Positions 43,858-47,861 of a DNA stretch of 64,000 nt are shown here, in pieces (positions within the stretch are counted from its first letter, which is position 1; each line of letters starts with the position of its first letter). The stretch is from an uncultured Desulfobulbaceae bacterium. GTDB taxonomy: Bacteria; Desulfobacterota; Desulfobulbia; Desulfobulbales; Desulfobulbaceae. The translations under genes were made by a program, and so were the position numbers. The notes beneath the pieces are model-generated. The model saw only the letters and a program-made list of their open reading frames with translations. It was not told the DNA's origin and searched no databases. Location: the NCBI GenBank assembly GCA_947259225.1, contig CAMYLK010000005.1:62001-126000 (forward strand), in the 5' to 3' direction.

Positions 43858-44598
43858 ATGAAGAAAATTGACCACGCAAAAGGAGTAAAGGTGAAGACAA
43901 GCCGAGAAAAACCTGTGTTGATTGTAGAAGACGATAGAAAAACAGCCGCCCTGGTTGCCACCTACCTTGAAAAAGAGGGTTATTCCACAGTTATTGCCTA
44001 TGACGGTCAGCAGGCCCTGGAAATGGAACGGCTGCACGACCCGGTTTTTATAGTACTGGATGTAATGCTGCCGAAAGTTGACGGGTGGGAAATCTGCCGG
44101 AGGCTGCGCAAACACTCCGATGTTCCAATTCTCATGTTAACAGCCCGGGAGGATGAAATTGATCGTGTTATGGGTTTGTCTCTGGGAGCGGATGACTATG
44201 TGGTAAAGCCTTTCAGTCCCAGGGAACTGGTGGAAAGGGTAAAAGCCATTTTGCGGCGAACCCGCAATGCCCATGCTGCAGAGCCTGCTGTTCTCTCCCA
44301 TGGCAGCCTTGTCCTTGACCCGGAGAAACATAAAGTTACACTTGATGATCAACTGGTTACCCTGACATCCCTTGAATATAAACTCCTGTACGCCCTTATG
44401 AGGTCTCCGGGTCGAGTATTTTCACGAAATGAACTCCTCGATCATTTTTACGAACAGGGAGAAGTTGTAGTAGACCGGGTTATTGATGTCCACATCGGCA
44501 AACTGCGGCAGAAGATTGAACAGGATCCTGCAAATCCACGTTTTATCCACACTGTTCGCGGATTCGGTTACCGGTTTGCCGATGTGGACGAGGAGTGA
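43858..44598 (+). CDS. OmpR/CpxR-family response regulator
   Basis: VLIVEDDRKTAALVATYL...LDVMLPKVDGWEICRRLR...KPFSPRELVERVKAILRR; winged-helix HIGKLRQKIEQDPANPRFIHTVRGFGYRF. Confidence 0.94.
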   Translation: MKKIDHAKGVKVKTSREKPVLIVEDDRKTAALVATYLEKEGYSTVIAYDGQQALEMERLHDPVFIVLDVMLPKVDGWEICRRLRKHSDVPILMLTAREDEIDRVMGLSLGADDYVVKPFSPRELVERVKAILRRTRNAHAAEPAVLSHGSLVLDPEKHKVTLDDQLVTLTSLEYKLLYALMRSPGRVFSRNELLDHFYEQGEVVVDRVIDVHIGKLRQKIEQDPANPRFIHTVRGFGYRFADVDEE

Positions 44599-45668
44599 TG
44601 ATAGTGAAAAACCGCTTGATCTGGAAGCTGCTGACCAATATCATCCCGGTGATCGGAATAATTATTCTGGTGATCTGGCTGGCCATCGATAAACTGGCTG
44701 CCAACTATTTCATGGCCCTCATGAACAAGTACGATGTCTCTCCAACAGACATTCATCAGATGTTTCTAACGGCAGTTCATCATTATCTTATCTGGGCCAC
44801 AGTCGCAGCTCTCTGTCTTGCCTTTGTTCTCAGTTACCTGCTTACCAGACGTGTCTTGCGGCCTCTTTCTCAAATGACATCTATCACCAGGCAGATTGCC
44901 GCCGGTGATTATTCAGCCAGGGTGGATGTTGTCACCCAGGATGAAGTAGGTGAACTGGGCATGGCCTTTAATCGCATGGCGGATAGCCTTGAGCAGATCG
45001 AGAGTTTACGTAAATCCATGGTGGCAGATGTTGCCCATGACTTGCGGACTCCCCTGACAAATCTGCGGGGGTATCTTGAAGCGTTGAACGATGAAGTGCT
45101 TCCCCCTTCCCAGGAGACATTGCAAATACTGCAGGAGGAGATACTGCACCTTGTCCATCTGGTGGAAAATCTTCAGCAATTGGCCAAGGCAGACGTGGCA
45201 AAAGCATACCTTAACAAAAAACCATTTAATCTTTCCCAGACAATAAATCAGATGTTGGAGCTGTATCGGCCAAATTTTCAGGATAAGAACATAAAAGTTC
45301 AAACATTATTTTCTGATCACATTGACCTGGTCAATGCGGACAGGGAAAAGGTGCTGCAGGTACTGCGAAATCTTATTGAGAATGGTTTGAAATTTACTCA
45401 ATGGGAAGGAACGGTACAAATTGTGACAGAACCTGTTCCAGAAGGTGTAAAAGTGCTTGTCACTAACAGCGGCAAGGAAATCTCCCGGGAAGATCTTCCC
45501 TATATTTTTGAGCGTTTTTACAAAGCAGATCCTTCACGCTCAGTTGAGCGGGGCGGAGCCGGTATTGGCCTCTCAATTGTCAAGGAATTGATTGAAGCCC
45601 ACGGCGGCCGGGTCGGGGCTGAAAGTTCGGACGGCGCAACAAGGGTCTGGTTCACGCTGCCTGCCTGA
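44595..45668 (+). CDS. Sensor histidine kinase (HAMP-HisKA-HATPase)
   Basis: VADVAHDLRTPLTNLRGYLEAL; FERFYKADPSRSVERGGAGIGLSIVKELIEAHGG; overlaps the RR gene. Confidence 0.94.
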   Translation: MMIVKNRLIWKLLTNIIPVIGIIILVIWLAIDKLAANYFMALMNKYDVSPTDIHQMFLTAVHHYLIWATVAALCLAFVLSYLLTRRVLRPLSQMTSITRQIAAGDYSARVDVVTQDEVGELGMAFNRMADSLEQIESLRKSMVADVAHDLRTPLTNLRGYLEALNDEVLPPSQETLQILQEEILHLVHLVENLQQLAKADVAKAYLNKKPFNLSQTINQMLELYRPNFQDKNIKVQTLFSDHIDLVNADREKVLQVLRNLIENGLKFTQWEGTVQIVTEPVPEGVKVLVTNSGKEISREDLPYIFERFYKADPSRSVERGGAGIGLSIVKELIEAHGGRVGAESSDGATRVWFTLPA

Positions 45669-45941: not shown

Positions 45942-45980
45942 CTTTACCATATCTTTACATTTCCTTTATCCGGCCTTTAC
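45942..45980 (+). promoter_or_regulatory. Array of four CTTTAC/CTTTAT half-sites at exactly 11-bp phasing (putative response-regulator operator)
   Basis: CTTTACCATAT-CTTTACATTTC-CTTTATCCGGC-CTTTACATCCC starting at 45942, 45953, 45964, 45975; reverse complement gives GTAAA-N6-GTAAA. Confidence 0.6.
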
Positions 45981-46064
45981 ATCCCCTGGTTATTCTTTGA
46001 GCTAAAGGAACGGGCCTGGACCCGCACTACATGTAAAACAGAAATCTTCTGTAGAATTGGAGGA

Positions 46065-46343
46065 GTGACCATGAAAAAAAATTATCTAAAAATATTGGCA
46101 ACCTGTCTTTCCCTCCTGATCTCCCTGTTGATATTCGGATGTGCACAAAACAACCCCTCAGGGAGTATGGGCAATACCATGGAAAATACTATGGATGAAA
46201 TGAAACAACAGGACACGGAAAAATCCATGGGAACAATGAAGGTTCAAAAGATGGAAGATCCAATGGAAAAAATGGACAGCACCGCGGATAAAATGAAGAG
46301 TGATGGTATGAAAGACAACATGAGCGGCATGGAAGACAAATAG
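46065..46343 (+). CDS. Met-rich small lipoprotein
   Basis: Signal peptide with lipobox LLIFGC; mature part has 13 Met in about 67 residues. Confidence 0.8.
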   Translation: MTMKKNYLKILATCLSLLISLLIFGCAQNNPSGSMGNTMENTMDEMKQQDTEKSMGTMKVQKMEDPMEKMDSTADKMKSDGMKDNMSGMEDK

Positions 46344-46417: not shown

Positions 46418-46747
46418 ATGAAACAATTGGTTTACATTTTAAGTGCGATCCTGATGGCCTCTTTATTACTTTCGAGTGGTTATGGAGAAGTTACAGTTGG
46501 AACCAGAGCTACCGCTACATTTGCTGTGCAGTGATATGACGTAGGTGTTGCCGCCCTGGAAGGGCGTCCAGGAGTTATAACAGTCGATAAAGGATGGTAT
46601 GGATTGAGCGAGGTTAACCATGTTGTCTATGAACAGGATAAAGTAACAGTTGAACAATTGATTGAATGGCTGAAGGAAACCGGTAACTATATCCGAACAA
46701 TTTCCTCAACAATAGAGGAGAACGATCGGCAGGATACCGGGAAATGA
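46418..46747 (+). CDS. Candidate exported selenoprotein (in-frame TGA = Sec39), MsrA-like/HMA-like ferredoxin-fold domain; alternatively a pseudogene
   Basis: AAGGAG RBS, ATG 46418, signal peptide, TGA at 46532-46534, then 70 further open codons to TGA 46745-46747: [109 protein letters not shown]. Confidence 0.7.
46535..46572 (+). promoter_or_regulatory. Putative bacterial SECIS hairpin downstream of the in-frame TGA
   Basis: CGCCCT-GGA-AGGGCG (46552-46566), loop ~23 nt after the TGA with G at its start; the alternative CCTGGA-AGGGCG-TCCAGG (46555-46572) also fits. Confidence 0.6.
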
Positions 46748-46781: not shown

Positions 46782-47861
46782 ATGAAGATCTTATGGCTCA
46801 TACCGGTGGTAATGCTTGCGTTTGTGGCAGCAGGTATTTTTTTGCACGGCAGATTTGACACAAAACAGGCCATGTCCATGGAAGCGAATGTAAGCCAGGC
46901 GGTTACGCAAAAAGCGATGTTTGCCGGCGGCTGTTTCTGGTGCATGGAAAAACCTTTTGAGAAATTGGATGGGGTTCTTTCAGTTACTTCCGGTTATGCG
47001 GGAGGGAAAACGAAAAATCCTACCTATAAGAATTATATGTCAGGTGGACATATTGAGGTTGTAGAAATTATTTTTGACCCTGCCAGGGTATCATTTGAGA
47101 AACTTTTGGATGTTTACTGGCAGCAGGTTGATCCGACAGATGCGGGCGGCCAGTTCGTTGACCGTGGACATGGGTATACCACTGCCATTTTTTACATCGA
47201 TGATGAGCAGCGTCGTCAGGCAGAAAAATCCAAAAATGACCTGGACCAGAGAGGGATTTTTGACAAACCGATTGTGACTCCGATAGTCCCGGCGGTGACT
47301 TTTTATGCCGCAGAGAAATATCATCAGGATTATTATAAAAAGAATCCTGTACGGTACCGTTTTTACAGAGCAGGATCAGGCCGGGACACTTTTCTGAATA
47401 AAGTATGGAAAGATGAAAAGAAGGTGGAGAAAAACAGCAAGATTGATCTTGAAAAGAAGTTGACCCCCCTTCAGTACAAGGTGACCCAGAAGGATGGAAC
47501 TGAACCACCATTTGATAACGAATACTGGGATAATAAAAAGCCTGGAATCTATGTAGATATTGTTTCCGGCGAACCGTTATTCAGTTCTTCGGATAAGTAT
47601 GACTCAAAGACGGGCTGGCCCAGCTTCACACGACCCCTGGTTGAAGGGAATATCGTGGAACGAGCAGACAGAGGTTTATTCATGACCAGAACTGAGGTCC
47701 GGAGCGCAAAGGGTGATTCCCACCTGGGACATGTGTTCAATGACGGACCACGGCCAACCGGTTTGCGCTATTGTATAAACTCTGCAGCCTTGAGGTTTAT
47801 ACCGGCTGAAGACCTTGCCCAAGAAGGGTATGGTGAATTTGCCGGACCATTCAAAGAGTAA
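46782..47861 (+). CDS. msrAB: Membrane-anchored/periplasmic peptide methionine sulfoxide reductase MsrA-MsrB fusion
   Basis: N-terminal hydrophobic anchor; MsrA motif [20 protein letters not shown]; MsrB motif [10 protein letters not shown]...[24 protein letters not shown]. Start at ATG after GGAGG. Confidence 0.94.

Follow-up and report, generated by a model that had tools for sequence, protein, structure and literature searches.

The MsrA of C. oremlandii (CoMsrA), a point of comparison for the gene described here, has a single Sec, lacks Cys, and has glutaredoxin as its reductant; its active site comprises GCFWG, Tyr47, Glu55, Gln89, Tyr90, His137, and Tyr140, and the removal of its C-terminal helical domain almost abolishes the activity (PMC4333827). 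In the Brucella bcrXQP system, a methionine-rich peptide is encoded together with MsrPQ and is induced by HOCl (PMC8315932). The accessible part of a 2026 review on the selenoproteins of prokaryotes lists MsrA as the ordinary enzyme of PF01625 (PMC13188914). The accessible part of the deep-Sep paper reports unnamed selenoprotein families from Desulfobulbia. It also cautions that selenoproteins lacking Cys homologues may escape its method, and that every selenoprotein known so far seems to have such homologues (PMC12013277).

We analysed a stretch of 64,000 nucleotides (hereafter, the window) from an uncultured Desulfobulbaceae bacterium, in which an earlier note had proposed a hidden selenoprotein gene next to msrAB. 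The gene, referred to here as the mini gene, lies at 46418..46747 on the forward strand and was annotated as a mini-MsrA-like selenoprotein gene on the basis of the sequence, the alignment, a fold model, and its homologues. The reading frame was confirmed as proposed: an AAGGAG ribosome-binding site precedes the ATG at 46418, 38 codons lead to the TGA at 46532, and 70 open codons follow up to the stop TGA at 46745-46747. The residue strings quoted for this gene were exact, and the gene is indeed missing from the six-frame list of open reading frames (at least 60 aa, same frame). The product of 109 aa consists of a signal peptide (about residues 1-28) and a ferredoxin-like domain with Sec39 (TGA 46532-46534, codon 39) and Glu65. 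The neighbouring gene for an exported MsrAB, a fusion of methionine-S- and -R-sulfoxide reductases (46782..47861, forward strand; profile models and neighbour comparison), does adjoin the mini gene, starting 34 nt downstream.

A first search of 96 related genomes yielded four relatives with readable frames, that of the window included, and one broken copy. The profile A1 (4 sequences) was then run against 258 genomes from the class and against GTDB contigs, and the profile A2 (24 sequences) against 395 genomes of the phylum. The resulting family set comprises 32 genes, all from Desulfobacterota. The codon 39 is TGA in 31 of them, including the gene of the window, and TGC in the remaining one (L035, the Cys form), the two codon types that the earlier note had named as support for Sec. 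Judging by the alignment, the conservation of TGA at this codon is far beyond chance. The sole homologue with Ser (AGC) at this place, L086, is a distant paralogue without an msr neighbour.

The protein sequence is conserved on both sides of the TGA, and thus also in the downstream part, where a lack of conservation would have counted against the proposal according to the earlier note. The residues F35, V37, U/C39, Y40, G43, L47, G52, E65, and N67 are invariant in the alignment A2, and the family motif reads TFxVxUYDVGKxALxGxxGIxxVxkGWxxxxEiNxVxFDP...GTYixT. In nine pairs, dS exceeded dN about 2- to 8-fold downstream of the TGA (dN/dS about 0.1 to 0.5), which shows that this portion of the gene is translated and under selection. 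A single Cys or Sec is present in each mature mini-protein (32/32). As far as can be seen from the genomes searched, the mini gene is patchy in its distribution, because its copies in G019 and G007 have decayed and a profile search of the genus to which the window belongs gave no match in its six other genomes. No relatives on plasmids were found by tblastn.

No Rfam SECIS model matched the window at its gathering score, and our own structure scan was applied to the region behind the TGA, where the earlier note had suggested looking for such an element. The scan revealed a SECIS-like hairpin at a fixed distance from the TGA, with compensatory changes. Together with the Sec codon it occupies 46532..46568 of the window (forward strand; structure scan, synonymous control, and covariation); six of the seven pairs of the stem 46550-46556 / 46562-46568 are formed, and the loop is TGGAA (46557-46561). 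A hairpin of the type GCnGCCC-TGGAn-GGGCnGC is present in each of the 31 TGA forms; it starts 15 nt past the TGA and has G as the second position of the loop. The longest stem had a mean of 6.65 bp, compared with 3.77 bp in synonymous recodings (4.39 in the best of 500 random sets), and the covariation score was 0.281 versus 0.139 for shuffled data (0/500). In the hairpin register, 90.8% of the cells were paired, with far lower values in slid registers. Changes on both sides were seen in five of the seven pairs, amounting to 18 such cells versus 5.9 when shuffled, pair counts that are inflated by related rows. Several of the pairs coincide with conserved codons (ALEG), a coincidence that the synonymous control addresses. 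Folding energy alone gave a weaker signal (mean z of -1.37 over all 32 rows, +0.41 for the window itself). In the Cys form, the stem is down to 3 bp and the hairpin is lost, which is what one would expect of a hairpin that serves the TGA. Apart from this family, a sub-threshold match to Rfam SECIS_3 was seen at L022 17580-17638 (forward strand, E 0.015), where a further selenoprotein gene may be present.

The selenocysteine machinery, on which the earlier note had made its proposal depend, was recovered in part: selA, selB (over the cut-off), and selD are present in the genome of the window, and selC was not located in this draft of 288 contigs. The selD gene itself contains an in-frame TGA (L093, G000:C4:155001-175000, at about 8799). 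The same genome encodes an ordinary Sec-MsrA (GUFWG, in-frame TGA; L094 on G000:C2, from about 2460), which makes it the second MsrA-type selenoprotein of this genome. SelA was detected in 27 of the 31 genomes searched (28 with a family gene, two with decayed copies, and one with the Ser paralogue) and in 22/22 of the well-assembled ones; the 97%-complete, single-contig genome G152, which has a TGA form, gave no SelA hit. The selC gene was found neither by RF01852, by ARAGORN on the fetched stretches, nor by Rfam on the selA/selB contigs; hand-written patterns did not find it either (one not a sound tRNA-Sec model, one with a too-short variable arm). Since the draft is in 288 contigs and the tRNA scan scored 150 of 351 candidates, this is a weak negative.

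These observations bear on the possibility that the TGA is a real stop, with a signal-peptide fragment as the product and a decayed frame downstream. The two clearly decayed relatives within the same family and the missing selC would fit it, but the same TGA in 31 distinct genes, the purifying selection after it, the compensatory changes in the hairpin, the Cys homologue, and the presence of selA, selB, and selD all speak against it, and we regard this explanation as scarcely credible. The following three accounts were rejected. A reading of TGA as Trp was discarded because genes here, the mini gene included, use TGA as a stop; an assembly error at the TGA was dismissed, as 31 distinct genes have it; and gene decay is at odds with the purifying selection.

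The 32 mini-proteins and 25 MsrAs from these loci were compared by hhalign, which gave a probability of 96 and an E-value of 1.5e-9 (a rough value, coming from a single comparison). In this alignment Sec39 falls on the catalytic Cys of MsrA, as had been proposed from a gapless comparison with the neighbouring Msr, and Glu65 falls on the active-site Glu; a 15-residue insertion of MsrA is missing from the mini-protein. The two proteins share the beta1-(C/U)-helix start with the Gly-Val turn, which also applies to the GUFWG Sec-MsrA, a Glu on the next strand (GHxE in MsrA, xxE in the mini-protein), and adjacency to msr genes. Unlike MsrA (PF01625 / TIGR00401), the mini-protein is half as long and has no 15-residue pocket loop, Phe-Trp pair, C-terminal half, or resolving Cys. 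Of the MsrA active site it keeps only Sec and Glu, Phe-Trp being replaced with Tyr-Asp (UYDVG). The PF01625 model scored 12 bits, below its gathering score of 23.7, and the sequence searches of Pfam, NCBIfam, and PDB revealed no family above the cut-off.

The AlphaFold model built with 24 sequences had a mean pLDDT of 87 (about 97 in the core). It contains strands 30-37, 53-61, 64-72, and 91-99 and helices 40-47 and 78-87, and thus has a ferredoxin-like beta-alpha-beta-beta-alpha-beta fold according to both AlphaFold and Foldseek. Sec39 and Glu65 are placed where helix 1 and strand 3, respectively, begin and, from this topology, Glu65 should lie near Sec39. The closest folds in Foldseek were the eEF1B and HMA domains (the latter including MerP), and no match had an E-value below 0.001. 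As MsrA was not among the top 50 matches, the link to MsrA rests on the profile alignment and not on the fold. Taking the codon, the hairpin, selA/selB/selD, and the MsrA profile together, the interpretation of the earlier note largely holds, and the hidden gene very probably encodes Sec at the key position of a small, predicted exported protein.

A second relative is NF041383, Trx_VPGUxxT_two (OS_HP5). Its second domain (143-206) matches 24/24 members of the mini family (best 1.8e-11), and hhalign aligned the mini-proteins with this domain at a probability of 97 and an equally rough E-value of 1.3e-10. The domain also aligns with MsrA and, like the mini-protein, has no MsrA pocket loop. Positions 142-200 of NF041383 match Msr-type proteins across the class, and the profile A1 also retrieved MsrAB and NF041383-type proteins in the genome scans. 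NF041383 differs in its length of 287 positions, in the Trx-like VPGU domain at its N terminus, and in the Sec site, which reads C(Y/F)WTGE; the mini-protein reached 37.4 bits against the cut-off of 275 bits, through the second domain only, and is not a full-length match. As a separate observation, the VPGUxxT type 2 Trx-like proteins in L049, L050, L053, and L057 have an MsrA-like second domain (142-206) that is absent from the name of the family.

An Msr-type gene adjoins the mini gene in 25 of the 32 loci (22 without three cases of Moco proteins), while in the other seven no msr gene was present within the stretch seen. The commonest arrangement is an exported MsrAB directly downstream; it is upstream in L085, the MsrAB of which has a methionine-rich linker between its two domains. 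Separate msrA and msrB genes are found beside the mini gene in L033, L035, L079, and L084, and msrB alone in L058 and L060. The three Moco proteins, encoded directly upstream in L080, L081, and L082, are of the sulfite-oxidase/MsrP class (PF00174, 218-243 aa). In L083 (889-1729), MsrB is fused in frame to the mini domain, and the PRK05550 MsrB/A model spans residues 88-248 of the fusion.

The earlier note had mentioned neither the two-component system and the regulatory box nor the methionine-rich lipoprotein, and the breadth of the family had likewise escaped it. The window encodes an OmpR/BaeR-type response regulator (43858..44598, forward strand), also found directly upstream in relatives, and a BaeS/CusS-like sensor histidine kinase (44595..45668, forward strand), both assigned by profile models. 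The two-component system, 57-69% identical to that of the window, lies directly upstream in 19 of the 24 class loci, some of which end earlier. A repeat search across the loci showed TTTAC direct repeats with 11-bp spacing ahead of the transcription unit in most loci with the two-component system; the window has four copies (TTTAC/T, 45943..45982, forward strand), which on sequence grounds are a probable binding box of the response regulator, so that the two-component system would control the operon. A putative lipoprotein with 14% methionine is encoded upstream of the mini gene (46071..46343, forward strand; assigned by composition), and a methionine-rich exported or lipoprotein gene lies just upstream in 10 of the 24 loci. 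By the same methionine threshold, only the window's own gene passed among 324 short background ORFs from the window and the other fetched loci. The lipoprotein is probably a sacrificial oxidant sink or an Msr substrate. L070, an MsrA locus without a mini gene, has a methionine-rich gene as well. As far as gene order and sequence tell, the two-component system, the TTTAC box, often the methionine-rich lipoprotein, the mini-selenoprotein, and the exported MsrAB form a conserved module of the class. With MrpX/BcrX and MsrPQ (PMC8315932) it has in common a methionine-rich exported peptide, genes for periplasmic MetO repair, and stress-responsive control, but it combines MsrAB with a selenoprotein and a two-component system, whereas bcrXQP combines MsrPQ with an ECF sigma factor.

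The earlier note had left room for an HMA/MerP-like protein, and on this reading the product would be a metal-binding selenoprotein, a chaperone whose selenol captures Cu(I), Hg(II), or Ag(I). It would work alongside a copper-binding lipoprotein rich in methionine, with a Cus-like two-component system in control. HMA domains were the best compact Foldseek matches (MerP 1afi, TMt 0.74), MerP gave a weak profile match (E 0.035), and the model NF041115 of UxxU metal-binding selenoproteins gave weak matches in 17 of the 24 members. Methionine-rich proteins can bind Cu(I), and the kinase scored on Cu/Ag sensor models, though far below their cut-offs. With HMA/MerP and NF041115 the mini-protein shares the generic fold and the Cys-to-Gly spacing after helix 1, but all 32 mature sequences have a single Sec or Cys and no CxxC (or UxxU) pair, and the HMA domains have a longer loop between strand 1 and the Cys, a length at which the mini-protein fits MsrA better. 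Moreover, the linkage is with msr genes and includes one MsrB fusion, and a cation P-type ATPase in the vicinity of L078 was the sole neighbour noticed that resembles a metal transporter. Because the CxxC metal motif is absent, the comparison with HMA/MerP is, by these sequences, right for the general fold only, and we consider a metal-binding role improbable.

A narrower form of our preferred explanation makes the protein solely a selenol redox partner, which would feed electrons to MsrAB (or MsrP-like enzymes) or reduce periplasmic peroxides and would make no contact with MetO. The loss of the MetO pocket residues with the nucleophile and Glu kept agrees with it, as do the different Msr types adjoining the gene (MsrAB, MsrA with MsrB, MsrB, and MsrP/SorA-like) and the lack of a resolving Cys, owing to which the protein must react with a partner thiol. 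A single-Sec shuttle without a second thiol would be unusual, however, and in the L083 fusion the mini domain takes the place of MsrA, an arrangement that favours an MsrA-like role. We see the restriction to an electron-donating role as rather unlikely, but clearly less so than metal binding.

The conserved Sec codon, the constrained SECIS-like hairpin, the homology to MsrA, the msr linkage, and the conserved two-component system with its box lead us to favour, with reasonable confidence, a genuine and undescribed selenoprotein that is nearly Sec-only, derived from MsrA, exported, and engaged in the defence of the envelope against methionine oxidation. The msr linkage and the MsrB fusion place it, we infer, in the envelope repair of oxidised methionine; its export, redox reaction, substrate, and reductant are likewise those we infer for such a protein. 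It would be an exported MsrA-fold core of roughly 80 residues in which the nucleophile (now Sec) and the Glu of the active site survive, but which has no resolving Cys left and has lost both the loop of the substrate pocket and the C-terminal half. Methionines in envelope proteins and in the methionine-rich lipoprotein would take up the oxidants, the lipoprotein serving as the kind of sink suggested for BcrX/MrpX (PMC8315932), and MsrAB would then reduce the resulting sulfoxides. The mini selenol might act as a 1-Sec enzyme on a sulfoxide or peroxide and be regenerated by an external thiol, or it might exchange electrons with the Msr enzymes. By analogy, the 1-Sec cycle should be feasible, since CoMsrA is recycled by glutaredoxin with one Sec and no Cys, and the reduction of MetO by the mini core alone is doubtful because CoMsrA without its C-terminal helical domain is almost inactive. 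As the hydrophobic pocket is lost, another substrate or a role as a selenol partner of MsrAB is equally worth considering. It is a tentative proposal, which we hold at somewhat less than an even chance, that the minimal MsrA core, whether catalytic or an electron donor, the methionine-rich lipoprotein, and MsrAB make up a dedicated, selenium-based system of oxidant capture and repair in the envelopes of sulfur-cycling anaerobes.

Neither Pfam nor NCBIfam 20.0 contains a curated model for the mini family. The accessible part of the 2026 review (PMC13188914) mentions neither the family motif nor a short, exported form resembling MsrA. The 'hypothetical protein DG' of deep-Sep is, like the mini-protein, new, from Desulfobulbia, and without a known domain; in the accessible part of that paper it is described with a number of Cys homologues (PMC12013277), but it may nevertheless be identical with the mini family. 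The mini-protein seems to be a selenoprotein of oxidative-damage repair in the envelope that has not been described before, although it may have been predicted earlier under another name. With one Cys form among 32 genes, the family is close to the blind spot of deep-Sep and, being almost always Sec, may therefore be missed by finders that require Cys homologues. It shows the minimum of the MsrA fold that is kept with Sec, and it raises the question of whether such a two-residue (Sec and Glu) remnant of MsrA reduces sulfoxides or serves the full enzyme next door. The family would also tie selenium to the methionine-sink defence of anaerobes that meet oxygen.
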